In this document: piece by piece, positions 6,167-21,450 of the stretch | Layout of the letters: every line of letters begins with the position of its first letter | Numbering within the stretch: position 1 is the stretch's first letter | Source of the DNA: a virus | IMG/VR virus record: IMGVR_UViG_3300036981_000036 | Location: 1-22,380 of that record | Reading direction: 5' to 3' (one strand) | DNA length: 22,380 bases | The notes under the pieces: generated by a model | Databases searched by the model: none | The model's input: the letters and a program-made list of their open reading frames with translations, nothing else | What the model was told of the DNA's origin: nothing | Position numbers and translations under genes: made by a program

Positions 6167-8650
6167 ATGATAAATATTTCATACATAAGATTGCTGAATG
6201 CGTTTGAATCTTTTTCAAATGCACATCTTCAAATCAAAAGATTTGCAAGTGATTTTCCTGAACAAGTGCCAAATTTTGGAACGGAAAAAGAAAACTATCC
6301 AATTTTATTTGTGTCACCAAACAACACGATATTTGATGAAAATGCGAATCAGTTCACAGTTGATGTTTATTGTTTTGACATAATTGAAAAGGACCGTATC
6401 AACATCAACACAATTCTTTCAGATACAAACACGATTCTGAATGATGTTTATAGATGGTTTAAAGATGGCGAAATCTTCGGCATTGATGTAATTACTGACA
6501 CGCCAACGTGTACACCAATAAACAACGGTTTGTTAGATTATGCAGCTGGCTGGCAAATGTCAATCACATTTGTTGTTGACACTTATGGCATTTGTGAAAT
6601 ACCATTCAACGGATCACCCGTTGTGATCACTGAAGTTTGTGACATTGTTTATTCGCAATATCTAACTTGTGAAACACTTGCAGACTGTCCAACAATAATT
6701 GACATTCAGGCATTGCTTCCAACGCAAGATCAAAAGGATGCAATGGACAATGCCAACGGACCAGATGCAGCAAATCCATTTGCAACAATGGCTGACGTTG
6801 GTGGAGGTGGAACATTGGACTTGCAACAGGTAACGGACAACGGAAATACAACAGACAATGACATTCAGTTTGATGCTGGTGTTGGTGTGTTGTTGGACAA
6901 CGGTTCACGATTACGGGAAGGAACAATTGATGCTGGATTTGGTGGTACAAAAGGTATTGCTCAAATTTGTGCTGTTGGTTATGAATTGAAATGGGAAGCT
7001 GGTCGGCAATATGTTATGGATGGCAATGGACTTTTGATTCGTCATTCATTGAACAATTTTACAACTGTTCCAAGTGCAACGGATGATTCAACTAAAGGTT
7101 ATTATGTTGGCAGTTTATGGACACTTGACAATGGTATAAGTTACATTTGTACTGATTCAACAATTGGTGCAGCTACGTGGTCCTTATACGATGCAAATCC
7201 GCAAGTCAATTCAGATTGGAATGCAGTCAGCGGTGTTGCTGAAATATTAAACAAGCCGACCATAACAAGCGGAACGGTCACATCTGTTGCAACAGCTGGA
7301 TTGATTTCTGGCGGAACAATCACATCAAGCGGAACAATCACAACTTCAATGAACACGAACAAGCTTGTTGGAAGATTCACAGCTGGTACTGGAGTGATGG
7401 AAGAAATAACCATTGGCAGTGGATTGACGTTGACTGGTGCTGGAACATTAAACAATACAGCGACACCAACACCTTTGGGATATTATGGTGCGTTTTCTGA
7501 TATAACAAATCAAACAGCCGCTGTAATCAATACGGGTTATCCAATGCTTTTGGGTGTCACTGATTTATCAAATCAAGTAACTGTTGTCAGTGGTTCACGG
7601 GTTACAATTGCAAACACTGGAATCTACAACATTCAATGGAGTGGACAATTTAGAAATCCATTAGCAGCGGAACACGATGTGACTATTTGGCTAAGAAAGA
7701 ACGGTGTTGATGTTCCGGGTTCAGCTGGTGTTGTTTTAGTTCCTAAAAAACACGGAAGTGCTGACGGTCACGTTTTGCCATCTTGGAATTTTCTTCTTGA
7801 TGTTGTTGGCGGTGACTATTATGAATTTGTATGGTCAACAGAAAATACATCTGTTTATTTATCATTTCAACCAGCTGGAAGTCCACCGCCATCAACAGCA
7901 TCTGTTGTGTTGACAGTAACGCAACAAAGCGGAATCATGGCTGGAACGGGAATCACTGCAATAAATTCTTTGACTGGATCAGTTCAAACAATTGCATCTG
8001 GAACAAGCGGAACTGACTTTGCGGTTTCTTCAGTTGGAACAACACACACTTTGAATTTACCAGATGCAAGTGCAACAGCAAGGGGTGTGATAACAACTGG
8101 AACGCAAACAATTGCTGGTGCTAAAACATTCACTGGCACAATTGTGCTACCAGCAACCACATCAATAGGAAATGTTAGTGATACAGAGATAGGTTATCTT
8201 GATGGGGTGACCAGTGCGATTCAAACACAAATAAATTCAAAATCTGAAAAAAGTATTTTATTATTTTCGTCTAATTTAAGTCCTGCAGATTTAACTGATT
8301 ACTATTTTTCAATTGGATATATTGCTGGAGCAACATCACCAAATTCAAAAAGATTTAAATTTGAAGCAGGTTCTACAACAGCAATAAAACTTGCTTTGCA
8401 AATGACAAATGCATCAGCTGCTTCAAGTGAATTAGTTACTTTAAATTTAAGAAATCAAACAACTGGAACTGATTATCTTATTGGAACATTTAATATGTCT
8501 TTAGTTGTTGTAAATACAAATTGGATTTTTGAATTTGCTTTTTCACATACAATTAATACAACAGACCAATGGGCAATAAAAATGACAACACCAGCTTGGG
8601 CAACAAATCCAACAGCAACAGTTATGCAATTTAAACTTTATTATAAATAA
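6167..8650 (+). CDS. Tail-completion-like N-terminus fused to a tail fibre / receptor-binding protein
   Basis: Encodes 827 residues in several modules. Residues ~1-145 ([19 protein letters not shown], then [14 protein letters not shown]) look like the ~140-residue tail-completion/terminator-type protein of Bacteroidota phages. Residues ~180-210 carry [20 protein letters not shown], a linker common in phage fibres. Residues ~366-395 repeat [18 protein letters not shown], a known fibre motif. Residues ~436-588 form a C1q/TNF-like jelly-roll candidate beginning [14 protein letters not shown] with [13 protein letters not shown]. Residues ~666-692 carry the phage-fibre motif [20 protein letters not shown], and the C-terminal ~130 residues are beta-rich and probably bind the receptor. 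The modules are seen in the sequence; the roles come from family patterns. The gene follows a short AT-rich spacer and its stop overlaps the next start by one base. Confidence 0.72.
7269..7342 (+). repeat. Short in-frame repeats in the fibre gene
   Basis: GCGGAACAATCACA occurs at 7311-7324 and again at 7329-7342, with a diverged copy (GCGGAACGGTCACA) at 7269-7282. The 18-base offset of the two exact copies keeps the frame and encodes the SGTIT-type repeat of tail fibres. Such repeats may promote recombination between fibres. Confidence 0.6.
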
Positions 8651-10768: not shown

Positions 10769-11309
10769 CACCTTTTAATTTCGTAACAATATCCTTCAAG
10801 ATTAAATTCACATAAGGCAGAATGACATCGGCAGTTACTTTTGTTCTGAACAATTCAGCCTTCGCTTTGATGTGTGCATCTTCGTAGTGAACACTTCTAT
10901 CAAGTGATAAATCTTTGTAAAGCACAGCCAACATTTCACCCATATATTTTTGATTATCTTGCTTGATGTACTTTTCAATTTTTGCCAAATCACGCACCGA
11001 CAATTTAAATTCTGATCCAGAATAAGCAGTATAAACAACACCATCAACTTCAATCGTTGGTTTGAACTCCTTACATTCCCAATCTTCATCGGTGAATGTT
11101 TTTGTCAAATCAATAAATTCTGATGGAGTTATTACATCAATTTCTTCATCGGTCAAACCTAATACACCAAAGACACGAAGGTACCTATCAAAAACATCTT
11201 CATCATCACCATTTAAGATAATACAAAGCTGTTCAAATTCAGCAACCTTGATTTCATTAATAGCATTGTTCATTGTTCTTTTTTGTCCATTGATTTCAAT
11301 TTGTATCAT
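10752..11309 (-). CDS. Minus-strand protein A, small paralogue; tail-assembly-chaperone-like candidate
   Basis: Encodes 185 residues from the ATG at 11309. A short beta start (MIQIEINGQKRTMNNAINE) precedes EIKVAEFEQL (19-28), a helical stretch FGVLGLTDEEID (47-58), KPTIEVDG (83-90) and MLAVLYKDLSLDR (126-138). The order and spacing match protein B downstream: EITLDQFIQL, then a loop, then QPTLNF, then CAILYRQNRL. The first gene of a divergent unit, it starts 39 bases from the protease start on the opposite strand. A paired short/long gene with shared N-terminal architecture resembles the G/GT-type chaperone arrangement, but here they are separate, overlapping and on the opposite strand. No frameshift signal was found. 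Function is unassigned. Confidence 0.6.
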   Translation of the reverse strand: MIQIEINGQKRTMNNAINEIKVAEFEQLCIILNGDDEDVFDRYLRVFGVLGLTDEEIDVITPSEFIDLTKTFTDEDWECKEFKPTIEVDGVVYTAYSGSEFKLSVRDLAKIEKYIKQDNQKYMGEMLAVLYKDLSLDRSVHYEDAHIKAKAELFRTKVTADVILPYVNLILKDIVTKLKGDAVTK

Positions 11310-11348: not shown

Positions 11349-12350
11349 ATGAAGCTACCTATTTATAAAATTACTATTGATCCAGAGTATTCGGATGGAG
11401 AGGACTTAGGCATCTCCCAATTTGCTTATACAGCAAGACCTGCAATAAAGGTCAAAGGTATGGCTTTTTCTTCACAAGAAAAAAAATATTTTGCCGATGA
11501 AGTAAAGATGCGTATTGCTGCACCAGCATTGATTCCAATGGAAATATATCGTTGTGATGAAGATGGTGAGTATTATGCTGAATTTACTGAAGAAGAAATT
11601 GAAAAATTGACTTCAAAGTTTATGGCAAATCTTACCAATCAAGGTAAATTTAATTTAGAACACAGCGATAAAAGTGTTGCACCAGCTTACATATTGGAAG
11701 CGTGGATTGTAAACGATCCAATTGCAGATAAAGCAAAAAGCACATTTAACATTGATGTTCCAAAAGGAACTTTAATGATTGTTAGCCAAGTAACCGATAA
11801 AGCGTATTATGATATGTTGGTTGCTAATGGGCAATTAGGATATAGCATTGAAGGGTTTCTTGGATTGAAACTTTCTGAACAAATAAACAAACACAAAAAT
11901 AAATATACAATGGAAGGAAAACCAACATCACTACCAGAGGGCACAAAGTTCGAGGTGGATGGAATTAAATACATCGTTAAAGATGGCAAAGTAATGACTG
12001 AAGCATTAGAAGAAGCGGTTGTTGCAGATACAACAAATGAAGCACAACTTGCACTTCCATTGGAAGAAGGAACAACTGAAGAAACACCAGCAGAAGAAAT
12101 GGCTGTTGAACCAGTAGTTGAACCAGCTGCAGTTGTTGAACCTGTTGTTGCGGCTCCAGCTGCAATGCCAACTGAAGCGGAAATTCTTGCAATCATTCAG
12201 CCGAAGCTTGATGAAATTTACAAGATGATTGCAGAATTGAAAGCTGAAGAAGTATCTGAAGAAATTGTTGTTCCGGTTGATATGACTAAAACAAAGATGT
12301 CTATTCACGATCGGTTTTCGCAAGTGATGAAGATTTCAAAAGAAAATTAA
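11349..12350 (+). CDS. XkdF-like prohead serine protease with C-terminal scaffold region
   Basis: I start at the ATG at 11349 (333 residues). Reading further upstream would run into the divergent gene, and the sequence MKLPIYKITIDPEYSDG is a natural N-terminus. Residues 1-180 form the protease: the putative catalytic His lies in FNLEHSDKS (H105) and the Ser in GYSIEGFL (S166), matching the XkdF/S78-type prohead protease layout. From ~220 the protein turns into Glu/Ala/Pro/Val-rich low complexity and then a helix (AEILAIIQPKLDEIYKMIAE), as expected of a fused scaffold delta domain that is cleaved out during capsid maturation. It lies directly before the capsid gene, which supports the call. 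Confidence 0.8.
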   Translation: MKLPIYKITIDPEYSDGEDLGISQFAYTARPAIKVKGMAFSSQEKKYFADEVKMRIAAPALIPMEIYRCDEDGEYYAEFTEEEIEKLTSKFMANLTNQGKFNLEHSDKSVAPAYILEAWIVNDPIADKAKSTFNIDVPKGTLMIVSQVTDKAYYDMLVANGQLGYSIEGFLGLKLSEQINKHKNKYTMEGKPTSLPEGTKFEVDGIKYIVKDGKVMTEALEEAVVADTTNEAQLALPLEEGTTEETPAEEMAVEPVVEPAAVVEPVVAAPAAMPTEAEILAIIQPKLDEIYKMIAELKAEEVSEEIVVPVDMTKTKMSIHDRFSQVMKISKEN

Positions 12351-12393: not shown

Positions 12394-13335
12394 ATGGCAC
12401 GTAAATTAAAATTCGACATTACAATTGATGCAAACGCATTGCTTTGTCCAAACCCAAATGAGTTCTATTCAAAGGCATATATCTCTGAAGATATTGTTGG
12501 AAATTACAGAACTTTAGCTGGTATAAAATATAAAACAAAAATTGCAAACGTATTGTTCAACGACTTGTTACAAGCATCAACTTGTACTTGGGCAGCAACA
12601 GATTCAACGCTTGATGCAGTTGATATTGATGTTTGCCCTTTATCAGCAATGGCACAAATTTGCCGTTTTGATATTGAACAATCATTTGTTTCTGCTTGGA
12701 TGGCAAAAGGTTCATCTGCACCATTTGATGTAAATGCTTTTATGTCGTACTACTGGGATGAAATGAGCAAACAAATTGCTTCTGAAGTTGAAGAAATTCG
12801 TTGGAGAGGTAACACTGCTGGAACACCAGGAACAACTTTAGATTTGTGTGATGGATATGAAATCCAATTGTGTGCTGATGCTAATGTTGTTCAAATTGCT
12901 TCAACAACAGTTGATGCAACAAATGTTATCGCTCAAATGAATTTAGTATATGCTGGTTTAATTCCAGCATTGCAAGGAAAGCGTAAAGATTTACGTTGGT
13001 TCGTTTCTTCAAATGTTTATGCAGCATTCTTACAAGCTACATATTCTTATTCAAATGCAAATATCCCATCAATTGATGGAAGCCTTGCAGCAACTTGGTT
13101 AGGAATTAAATTGGTTATTGCTGAAGGAATGAGCAACAACACAATGGTTCTTACTCACAAAGACAATTTAATTTATGCTTTTGATGGTGATAACGATGCG
13201 AAAGTATTGAAATCAGTAAACTTGGAAGATACGGTTGCAGAACCAATTCTAAGAACAAGAGTTGATTTGAAGATGGGTTTCTTTTATGTAAATCCAACTG
13301 AAATTGTTTTCTATTCTGCTGGACCTTGTTCATAA
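12394..13335 (+). CDS. Major capsid protein
   Basis: Encodes 313 residues. Evidence is position and pattern: directly after the protease/scaffold gene, own AT-rich leader, strong terminator immediately downstream, and a mid-protein segment (MSKQIASEVEEIRWRGNT, about residues 124-141) that fits the spine-helix-plus-W-x-G-N/D-T pattern of HK97-fold capsid proteins. The end (RVDLKMGFFYVNPTEIVFY) fits the last P-domain strands. It has seven Cys in 313 residues (CPNP, CTW, CPLS, ICRF, LCDG, LCAD, PCS), unusual for a cytoplasmically assembled shell. The length is normal for Bacteroidota siphophage capsids. HK97 fold is inferred, not demonstrated. Confidence 0.8.
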   Translation: MARKLKFDITIDANALLCPNPNEFYSKAYISEDIVGNYRTLAGIKYKTKIANVLFNDLLQASTCTWAATDSTLDAVDIDVCPLSAMAQICRFDIEQSFVSAWMAKGSSAPFDVNAFMSYYWDEMSKQIASEVEEIRWRGNTAGTPGTTLDLCDGYEIQLCADANVVQIASTTVDATNVIAQMNLVYAGLIPALQGKRKDLRWFVSSNVYAAFLQATYSYSNANIPSIDGSLAATWLGIKLVIAEGMSNNTMVLTHKDNLIYAFDGDNDAKVLKSVNLEDTVAEPILRTRVDLKMGFFYVNPTEIVFYSAGPCS

Positions 13336-17002: not shown

Positions 17003-17024
17003 ATTTATAATCATTATAAATAAG
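17003..17024. repeat. Palindromic 22-base direct repeat, copy 1 (operator candidate)
   Basis: The 22 bases are identical to 17068-17089. The first 19 form a palindrome with nine-base arms around a single central C (ATTTATAAT-C-ATTATAAAT). This copy lies 11 bases after the late-gene stop, immediately before the terminator hairpin. Symmetry and exact duplication suggest a protein binding site. Confidence 0.6.
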
Positions 17025-17053
17025 ACCTACACCGCAATAGTGGTGTGGGTTTT
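17025..17053 (+). terminator. Terminator closing the late operon, between the two palindromes
   Basis: The stem 17026-17033 with 17042-17049 (CCTACACC/GGTGTGGG, one T-G pair, extended by A25-T50) has an 8-base loop followed by TTTTC. It separates late and early transcription. The T tract is short. Confidence 0.75.
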
Positions 17054-17067
17054 CTTGCTTTATGGCT

Positions 17068-17089
17068 ATTTATAATCATTATAAATAAG
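17068..17089. repeat. Palindromic 22-base direct repeat, copy 2 (operator candidate)
   Basis: Identical to copy 1, 65 bases downstream. It ends ten bases before the -33 TTG of the early promoter, so a bound protein would touch the polymerase. The ribbon-helix-helix protein encoded 65 bases downstream is the natural candidate ligand. Confidence 0.6.
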
Positions 17090-17099
17090 GAATAATGTA

Positions 17100-17129
17100 T
17101 TGCCGTATTGATATATATGTATATATTTG
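17100..17129 (+). promoter_or_regulatory. Bacteroidota-type promoter of the early operon
   Basis: TTG at 17100-17102 and TATATTTG at 17122-17129 are separated by 19 bases, an exact match to the primary sigma factor pattern of Bacteroidota (TTG-N~19-TAnnTTTG). Transcription would begin near 17134-17138, about 18 bases before the first early gene. Confidence 0.75.
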
Positions 17130-17153: not shown

Positions 17154-17300
17154 ATGAAAACAGAAAAACCAAAGTATTTGTACACCTTTAAAAATAAGAA
17201 GGTGAGAAAAGCATTCAGCCAATTAGCATTGGATAGTGAAAAGACTTTACAAGAATTAATCACCGAAGCATTAGAAACGAAATATCCCAAAATCAAATGA
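17154..17300 (+). CDS. Ribbon-helix-helix DNA-binding protein
   Basis: Encodes 48 residues. A basic start (MKTEKPKYLYTFKNKK) includes a short strand (residues 8-12), followed by helix A (KVRKAFSQLALDSE, 16-29), a turn and helix B (TLQELITEALETKY, 31-44). This is the Arc/CopG/ParG ribbon-helix-helix layout, in which a dimer's strands enter the major groove. It is the first gene of the early operon, preceded by an A/C-rich leader (AAAACCCAAAACAAA). The palindromic repeats upstream could be its operators, making it an autoregulator or early/late switch; that link is inferred. Its TGA overlaps the next ATG (ATGA). Confidence 0.65.
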   Translation: MKTEKPKYLYTFKNKKVRKAFSQLALDSEKTLQELITEALETKYPKIK

Positions 17301-20247: not shown

Positions 20248-20534
20248 GCCACTACAACACAACACACGAATCTGGGCAATTACTATTGCAATATGAGTAT
20301 GTTGCACTATCACTTGAAAAGATTGTTTTAGAAATCTATAAACAACAAAACAGACCATTAACTTGGAGTGATGTGCATTTGATTATTCCAAACGTGAATG
20401 AAGTCAGCTTAAAAAGAAGCATCACTAACTTGAAAACCTCTGGACATCTGGAAAAGACAAAAGAAAAAGGAATCAGTATTTACGGCAGACCAGCTTATAA
20501 ATATAAACTTATTAAAAATAAATTTGCAGATTAA
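20244..20534 (+). CDS. Small winged-helix DNA-binding protein, putative regulator
   Basis: Encodes 96 residues. An N-terminal helix (SLEKIVLEIYKQQNRPLTWS) is followed by a helix-turn-helix-like part (WSDVHLIIPNVNEVSLKRSI, then LKTSGHLEKTKEKG) and a wing with basic end (YGRPAYKYKLIKNKF). This fits a winged helix of the kind common in phage replication operons. It is the last gene of the early operon; the -33 element of the next promoter lies inside its 3' end, so its product may control that promoter. That control is inferred. Confidence 0.55.
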   Translation: MSHYNTTHESGQLLLQYEYVALSLEKIVLEIYKQQNRPLTWSDVHLIIPNVNEVSLKRSITNLKTSGHLEKTKEKGISIYGRPAYKYKLIKNKFAD

Positions 20535-20553
20535 AAATAAATGTTTATATTTG
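20523..20553 (+). promoter_or_regulatory. Bacteroidota-type promoter driving a non-coding leader
   Basis: TTTG at 20523-20526 and TATATTTG at 20546-20553, separated by 19 bases, match the Bacteroidota primary promoter pattern exactly and share the -7 octamer and spacing of the early promoter. The -33 element overlaps the end of the winged-helix gene. The predicted start is near 20558. Confidence 0.75.
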
Positions 20554-20557
20554 CAAT

Positions 20558-20676
20558 CAGTTCTTAGTTTTATACAAAAAGTTATTTGGTAGAATAACAA
20601 TCGAAATAGTCCAACGGAAACAATGGATGAACACGATTAAGCCCCTTTTCTGCTACCACAGAACTGGGGCTTTTTC
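20558..20676 (+). ncRNA. Structured non-coding RNA or attenuated leader upstream of the replication gene
   Basis: The region between promoter and terminator holds no credible gene. It contains the hairpin GTTATT/AATAAC (20581-20586 with 20593-20598, loop TGGTAG), a five-codon ORF (MDEHD, 20623-20640) and the terminator hairpin. The first predicted transcript bases CAGTTCT (20558-20564) are perfectly complementary to AGAACTG (20660-20666) in the terminator's loop and base. The RNA could therefore either close on itself as a ~119-base small RNA or switch between terminated and read-through forms. The downstream replication gene shows no promoter of its own. No known RNA family was recognised. 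Confidence 0.5.
20639..20675 (+). terminator. Terminator with a nested hairpin before the replication gene
   Basis: The outer stem AAGCCCC/GGGGCTT (20639-20645 with 20666-20672) encloses an inner stem TTCTG/CAGAA (20648-20652 with 20659-20663, loop CTACCA), followed by a T run to 20675. It would end both the early operon and the transcript from the 20523-20553 promoter. Confidence 0.85.
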
Positions 20677-20694
20677 GTTTTAAAATAAAATACA

Positions 20695-21450
20695 ATGGCA
20701 TCAGAACTTCCTTACTTTAGATTTACCGTTCAAGAATGGCAGAACGGAAATATAGCACTTGAAAGATATGAGCTTCAAGGTTTGTTTATTTCAATTTGTG
20801 GCTTCTACTGGTTGCAAGATTGTAGCATTACTCTGGCATTGCTACAAAAGAAATTCAATACAAATATGATTCAAGAGTTGATTGATTTAGGTATTTTAAA
20901 GCACGAAAACAGACACGATAAAATTGAAATTGTGTTTTTAAATAAGCAGTATGATTTACTAAGTGAGAAACGGAAACTTAGACAGATTGCTGGTTCTAAG
21001 GGTGGCAATGCTAAAGCAATGCTCAAGCAAAAAGGTAGCTATAAAGATAAGGATAAAGATAATAATAAAGATAAGATAAGAACTGATGCAAAAATGCATC
21101 TTGAATTTTATCAACCTTGTTTAGATTTTTGGTTAAAAGAATTTCATCCAGATTGGACCTTTGGCGGAGTGCAAGGTAAAGCATTAAAATCTTTAATTAA
21201 AAAAATTGAAAAGTTGCGTAAAAATGAAAACGATTCAATTGTGGAGTTGTTCAAAATCATTTGCTGGAAGCTTCCAGATTGGTACAAAGACAAAGATTTG
21301 CCAATAATAGATTCAAAATTCAACGAAATAATCGAACAAATAAAAACACAAAACAATGGAAAATCTGCCAACAAACACAACGAACTTAGCAAAGGCCAAC
21401 ACACAATTAACGCAATCAATGAACTCATCAGAGATGTTGGTACTGAATAA
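20695..21450 (+). CDS. Replication protein, replisome-organiser / DnaD-like (DUF4373-like)
   Basis: Encodes 251 residues. The N-terminal ~100 residues are a winged-helix-like domain (MASELPYFRFTVQEWQNGNI, then GFYWLQDCSITLALLQKKFN and QELIDLGILKHENRHDKIEI), as in DUF4373/replisome-organiser proteins that recognise the phage origin. SKGGNAKAMLKQKG and a charged linker (KDKDKDNNKDK, about 117-127) lead to a second helical domain (about 133-215) resembling the DnaD-like/DnaB-recruiting half. The linker's DNA is a run of GATAA-like repeats. The start codon is the ATG at 20695 after TAAAATAAAATACA. Its 3' end overlaps the next gene by 95 bases in another frame. Confidence 0.65.
   Translation: MASELPYFRFTVQEWQNGNIALERYELQGLFISICGFYWLQDCSITLALLQKKFNTNMIQELIDLGILKHENRHDKIEIVFLNKQYDLLSEKRKLRQIAGSKGGNAKAMLKQKGSYKDKDKDNNKDKIRTDAKMHLEFYQPCLDFWLKEFHPDWTFGGVQGKALKSLIKKIEKLRKNENDSIVELFKIICWKLPDWYKDKDLPIIDSKFNEIIEQIKTQNNGKSANKHNELSKGQHTINAINELIRDVGTE
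21041..21080 (+). repeat. GATAA-type simple repeat inside the replication gene
   Basis: AAAGATAA/GGATAAAGATAA-like units repeat about six times and encode the Lys/Asp linker of the replication protein. In many phages the origin lies inside the initiator gene in such AT-rich repeats, so this could be an origin candidate; that use is inferred only. Confidence 0.35.

Follow-up and report, generated by a model that had tools for sequence, protein, structure and literature searches.

We analysed a 22,380-base virus record from IMG/VR (hereafter, the window), which carries genes for phage recombination, HNH, portal-like, and replication proteins. The features that concern us here lie at and immediately ahead of a replication gene; hairpin loops are given in brackets.

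20523 to 20553, plus strand: Bacteroidetes-type promoter TTTG-N19-TATATTTG (consensus from PMC6847099), with the predicted transcription start site (TSS) at 20558
20558 to 20680, plus strand: leader RNA, about 115 nt measured from the TSS to where the terminator stem ends (20672), with the U tract in addition; fold z score of -4.0
20581 to 20598, plus strand: P1 hairpin GUUAUU[UGGUAG]AAUAAC, the loop of which is the 5' kissing partner
20587 to 20592, plus strand: kissing segment UGGUAG, a perfect 6-nt complement that pairs with 20653 to 20658
20599 to 20638, plus strand: linker of 40 nt containing a nonconserved open reading frame (ORF), MDEHD (20623 to 20640)
20639 to 20672, plus strand: P2, the terminator stem AAGCCCC/GGGGCUU, followed by a U tract (from the fold and the descriptor scan)
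20648 to 20663, plus strand: P3 hairpin UUCUG[CUACCA]CAGAA, nested in P2, with its loop (20653 to 20658) as the 3' kissing partner
20695 to 21450, plus strand: gene for a replication/primosomal-type protein (PHROG 29280), the first gene past the leader and without a promoter of its own

The promoter consists of TTTG (20523 to 20526), a 19-nt spacer, and TATATTTG (20546 to 20553). The Flavobacterium -7 element is TAHHTTTG with the G at -5 (PMC6847099), and since TATATTTG fits this pattern, the transcript should start at 20558. When both strands of the whole window were scanned, the exact pattern TTTG-N19-TAnnTTTG occurred this one time (0.4 expected per shuffled window). The perfect promoter and the start near 20558 that an earlier, sequence-only reading had proposed were thus confirmed. 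That reading had also described a gene-free leader of about 115 bases, which held up: the terminator stem ends 115 nt into the predicted transcript, no plus-strand ORF of at least 60 amino acids lies between the TSS and the replication ORF, and the sole ORF listed over the region is on the minus strand (20409 to 20600). The strong terminator said to stand directly before the replication gene is there as well (20639 to 20672, AAGCCCC/GGGGCTT plus a T tract, with the gene starting at 20695), and the gene indeed lacks a visible promoter. There is no room for a second one, and transcription from the upstream genes may also reach the replication gene.

The leader folds well. Its predicted energy was -34.6 kcal/mol, compared to -21.6 ± 3.25 kcal/mol in shuffled sequences (z = -4.0; 0 of 200 shuffles as good), and the second hairpin noted earlier at 20581 to 20598 is present as P1. 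The P1 loop, UGGUAG (20587 to 20592), and the loop at the tip of the terminator, CUACCA (20653 to 20658), are exact complements, and this pairing sits 37 nt from the replication ATG, upstream of the start codon. The full arrangement of P1, P2, P3, and kissing loops had a descriptor score of 59.5, which none of 1,000 shuffles reached. As the loop-to-loop pairing is compatible with the terminator, the leader is predicted to adopt one compact fold, not two rival ones.

The only close homologue of this leader was found in contig IMGVR_UViG_3300042524_000063 (L008). The gene upstream of the L008 leader is 96% identical to that in the window, and the replication gene behind it starts differently. 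The L008 hairpins are GUUAUU[GGUCAG]AAUAAC (P1, starting at +25) and UGUA[CUGACC]UACA (P3). Three of the six loop pairs are compensated, with TGGTAG/CTACCA in the window becoming GGTCAG/CTGACC in L008; the P3 stem has also changed with compensation, and the stems of P1 (identical) and P2 are retained. The compensatory changes sought in relatives were thus found for the P1/P3 loop pairing and the P3 stem, but not for the pairing between the 5' end and the terminator that the sequence-only reading had favored. Other searches for the leader returned little: a scan of viral contigs for the exact pattern AAGCCCC...GGGGCTT gave no match, a scan with GAATAACAATCGAAATAG found it as a leader in the L008 contig alone among viral contigs (matches in bacterial genomes being due to chance), and a DNA search among cultured phages gave no match.

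The replication proteins of the window (20695 to 21450) and L008 (3436 to 4131) share their C-terminal halves and differ in their N-terminal domains behind homologous leaders, an apparent domain swap at the replication initiator; the start of the L008 protein resembles the start of the elemoA replication protein (DUF6291). Locus L009 (3311 to 3438) has the same upstream gene as the window and a nonhomologous leader with a pseudoknot-type pairing of 14 to 15 bp and no clear U tract, so that the leader appears to have been replaced at the same place.

We then looked at other phages through one protein family, the relatives of the replication protein found by tblastn in viral contigs. Among the cultured relatives, gp44 of Flavobacterium phage morran9-1 (L109) also matches primosomal-protein PHROGs. 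A search of 299 Flavobacteriaceae genomes did not find the gene, leaving no prophage copies for comparison. Upstream of the relatives, we observed leaders of unrelated sequence in which a 5' segment is complementary to the terminator loop. In 31 of 72 nonredundant upstream regions, the score for two crossing helices was in the top 5% of shuffles, an excess driven partly by the terminator alone. The first helix given the terminator had a Fisher P of about 5e-8, and a pairing score of at least 20 between a locus's own loop and its terminator was seen in 40% of cases, compared to 3.7% when the loops were swapped between loci. A descriptor combining P1, a loop-loop helix of at least 6 pairs, P2, P3, and a T tract gave 8 hits with scores of at least 55 in the 72 replication-gene upstream regions (0.1 expected) and 11 with scores of at least 60 upstream of 380 genes in 25 phage genomes or contigs (0.12 expected); because the descriptor demands at least six perfect loop pairs, perfect pairing among the hits is by selection, and the enrichment is the evidence. 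When the U tract was not required in the scan, all 12 hits with scores of at least 60 still had at least four Ts in the 9-nt tail, which makes them genuine terminator signals by sequence.

Altogether, about 30 leaders with the same architecture and different sequences precede genes of related Bacteroidetes-type phages, both uncultured and cultured. Their common layout is a promoter, P1 (usually at the 5' end), an AU-rich linker, and the terminator P2 around P3, the loop of which kisses P1. The window leader matches this layout, but its P1 is at +23, not near +1. In our table of 30 leaders, 27 have a recognized -7 element, and in 17 of these 27, P1 starts between -2 and +3 of the predicted TSS. 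The tabulated RNAs are 71 to 129 nt long with AU-rich linkers of usually 9 to 40 nt, and P2 ends 6 to 53 nt ahead of an ATG in all of them except the portal gene leader of Nekkels_1, where the gene starts with GTG. The linkers between P1 and P2 (e.g., in L095, L047, L126, and L108) often contain a motif like AAGAAAUUUUA in otherwise unrelated surroundings. In a variant subgroup, a linear 5' segment with a longer helix replaces P1 (L009, with 14 to 15 bp; L102, with 11 bp; and L104). Some relatives had no leader (e.g., L003 and L006), nor was one found in the cultured phages phi38:1 (first 50 kb), B124-14, and 11b. All loop sequences differed (31 out of 31), and leaders within one phage did not cross-pair, which speaks for recognition in cis.

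The best-aligned subgroup (A4), comprising Flavobacterium phages morran9-1, stinky9-1, and elemoA and the uncultured L076, allowed us to look at covariation. In this alignment, 94% of the cells were paired (34 to 45% in slid controls), and both sides had changed in 13 pairs, compared to 4.9 in shuffles (0 of 500). The kissing helix has seven contiguous pairs, all of them paired, and one appears as AU, CG, GC, and UA across the four sequences. A second group (L095, L097, L099, and L048) aligns less well; the P1 loops GCGTGAGA, GCGTTGGA, and GGTCGGA each have an exact complement in P3. A covariance model built from the four A4 leaders (R1) located L030, L091, and L007 where leaders were expected, with weak scores for the last two or three. 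Over 199 Flavobacteriaceae genomes, it gave two borderline matches, which we attribute to chance since both lack the kissing architecture. R1 does not reach the window leader, and given that this leader has one close homologue (L008), copies of the architecture could have converged.

The genes behind the leaders are varied: replication operons as well as methylase, helicase, portal, and homing endonuclease genes. Further leaders with other loops were found within single phages, before a DNA methylase with a ParB-like part (L120), a helicase (L137), a helicase-methylase (L134), an endonuclease VII-like protein (L136; start at 11824, minus strand), an HNH/NUMOD4 protein (L126; start at 6456, minus strand), and a GIY-YIG homing endonuclease (L131; start at 10930, minus strand). 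The free-standing homing or other endonuclease genes in L131, L126, and L136 thus each come with their own promoter and kissing-loop leader. Cellulophaga phage Nekkels_1 has a second leader, before its portal gene (L110; 10187 to 10312), with a 9-nt loop pairing, CTACCTTAC/GTAAGGTAG; late genes may therefore be controlled too. Since the same design, with its own loop pair in each copy, stands before several operons in one phage, it resembles a reusable expression cassette and not a switch specific to replication. In morran9-1, a match to the Rfam DUF805b RNA (12838 to 12872; 52 bits) lies just upstream of a ParB-like gene. In the window, a palindrome-containing repeat, TTTATAATCATTATAAATAAG, occurs twice (17003 to 17091), flanking a terminator-like hairpin (17022 to 17053), and a Bacteroidetes-like promoter (TTG at 17100) with a short ORF at 17154 comes shortly after; the repeats look like an operator pair.

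The claim that no known RNA family matches the leader agrees with our search: Rfam 15 covariance models gave no match above the gathering threshold in the window or at the leaders of the related loci scanned. Our literature search returned no description of such leaders, and noncoding RNA, terminators, and promoters are not mentioned in the paper that reports how the Baltic Flavobacterium phages were isolated. In type III toxin-antitoxin systems (ToxIN), a promoter, a short pseudoknotted RNA, a terminator, and then a gene follow each other. The order of elements in the kissing leaders is similar, but the genes behind them are for replication, methylase, helicase, portal, or endonuclease proteins; we rejected a type III system for the window, where 20558 to 20680 contains no tandem RNA repeats. 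The nut sites of lambda and the put sites of HK022 are structured RNAs that open phage operons and govern terminator read-through; they have conserved sequence boxes and are not known to be followed directly by a terminator of their own or to kiss with one. The phage leaders likewise place a structured RNA at the start of an operon, but we noticed no such conserved boxes in them (lambda N is reviewed in PMC4496710).

In the rep attenuators of plasmids pT181 and pIP501, too, the leader of a replication gene contains an intrinsic terminator and loop-loop kissing has a central role (PMC4878617, PMC4485353), but there an antisense RNA kisses the leader, whereas the two loops of the phage leader belong to a single RNA and one of them is part of the terminator. 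The window has the intrinsic terminator (P2, 20639 to 20672, plus the U tract). A potential antiterminator pairing, CAGTTCT/AGAACTG, is present, but it is within chance and not conserved, and a scan for consensus-type promoters found no Bacteroidetes promoter on the minus strand opposite the leader. The repZ pseudoknot leaders of IncI-alpha/IncB plasmids (ColIb-P9 and pMU720) activate translation and require a leader peptide and an antisense RNA. They resemble the phage leader in the long-range loop pairing just upstream of the replication initiator gene (cited in PMC10724649). Such pairing upstream of the start codon is found in the window, conserved with compensation; the phage leader differs in having a terminator and in standing before several operons, and its short ORF is not conserved. 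The five-codon MDEHD ORF reported earlier does exist (20623 to 20640), but it is absent from L008, which has no ATG at the matching place. As neither an antisense RNA nor a leader peptide was found, we did not file the leader under plasmid attenuators or pseudoknot leaders, although by analogy it would seem to work most like them (PMC4878617, PMC4485353, PMC10724649).

Our computations show a promoter and a terminator, complementary loops that are conserved through compensation, and recurrence of the design directly upstream of phage genes. From these, we infer that the leader is a cis-acting transcription attenuator with kissing loops (probability of about 0.6). RNA polymerase would start at 20558 and make P1, the AU-rich linker, and then P2 enclosing P3; the P3 loop would pair with the P1 loop in the same molecule, and the resulting compact RNA, about 115 nt long, would have its 3' end at the U tract. 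Some of the polymerases would read through to the replication gene 22 nt downstream, in a proportion that depends on whether the fold with kissing loops and terminator has formed. With a terminator between the promoter and the gene, expression should depend on read-through. The reading presumes a terminator that is functional in the host, an effect of kissing on termination, and relief of the terminator by some trans factor or kinetic cue. The kissing helix and the terminator can form together, so the helix probably either drives the folding of the terminator, or sets when it folds, or offers the relieving factor a place to bind; a static kissing fold alone is no proof of a switch. The leaders of the same design point to an undescribed class of RNA switch. 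The Rop protein recognizes the kissing fold, not the sequence, of the ColE1 RNAs. By analogy, one factor recognizing the fold might release all leader terminators of a phage at a set stage of infection, with the orthogonal, hypervariable loop pairs as identity tags against cross-talk between operons and coinfecting phages; such a phage-wide regulon is a doubtful extension.

The earlier suggestion of an attenuator or a small RNA was partly supported, in that a structured, promoter-driven leader with a terminator stands before the replication gene and relatives retain it through compensatory substitutions. A separate, highly stable small RNA that acts in trans and is closed by kissing, which would stand before genes through shared promoter use and not for regulation, nevertheless seems improbable. 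With P1 at the 5' end and a terminator at the 3' end, an RNA of about 70 to 130 nt would be protected, and the terminators are complete with U tracts, but the loops, the obvious seeds of such an RNA, offer no conserved target (31 out of 31 being different), and P2 nearly always ends 6 to 53 nt before a same-strand ATG, ahead of many unrelated genes. Loops that are hypervariable yet self-complementary argue instead for pairing in cis. That P1 often starts at +1 and the fold ends just ahead of the start codon would also suit a 5' untranslated region stabilizer or translation device, with the fold protecting the mRNA 5' end or presenting an AU-rich start region and the hairpin not being a working terminator; Flavobacterium johnsoniae tunes translation via structure and A-rich starts, without Shine-Dalgarno sequences (PMC6847099). 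We consider this distinctly improbable, as the U tract after P2 is real even when not required and a stabilizer needs no T-rich tail.

The version put forward in the sequence-only reading, mutually exclusive antiterminator and terminator folds made by 5' CAGUUCU and terminator AGAACUG, is very improbable. The 7-nt complementarity at the predicted 5' end (20558 to 20564 with 20660 to 20666) is exact, and it adjoins the kissing partner, so that CAGUUCU and UGGUAG jointly cover nearly all of CUACCACAGAACUG. Its significance did not stand, however: 9 of 100 shuffles equaled it in the same topology, L008 keeps AGTTCTTA without a partner (CTACACTT), and P1 takes the 5' end in most other leaders, which lack such a segment. 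Least probable of all is a plasmid-type attenuator in the manner of pT181/pIP501, in which a counter-transcript kisses the leader and controls rep. Its hallmarks are kissing hairpins and a replication gene whose leader contains a terminator (PMC4878617, PMC4485353), but the complementary loops sit in one RNA, the opposite strand has no consensus promoter, and nonreplication genes are preceded by the same design.

If the attenuator reading is true, many Bacteroidetes-type phages would have an RNA gate before key genes (replication, DNA methylation, packaging, and homing endonucleases), built on a principle absent from Rfam, in which a hairpin upstream captures the terminator's own loop. As the loop sequences are free to vary while the structure is kept, the leaders would provide ready-made orthogonal transcription switches. 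The timing of expression in this little-studied phage group would then be testable in the cultured Flavobacterium phages morran9-1, stinky9-1, and the elemo phages, as well as in Cellulophaga phages phi19:1 and Nekkels_1.
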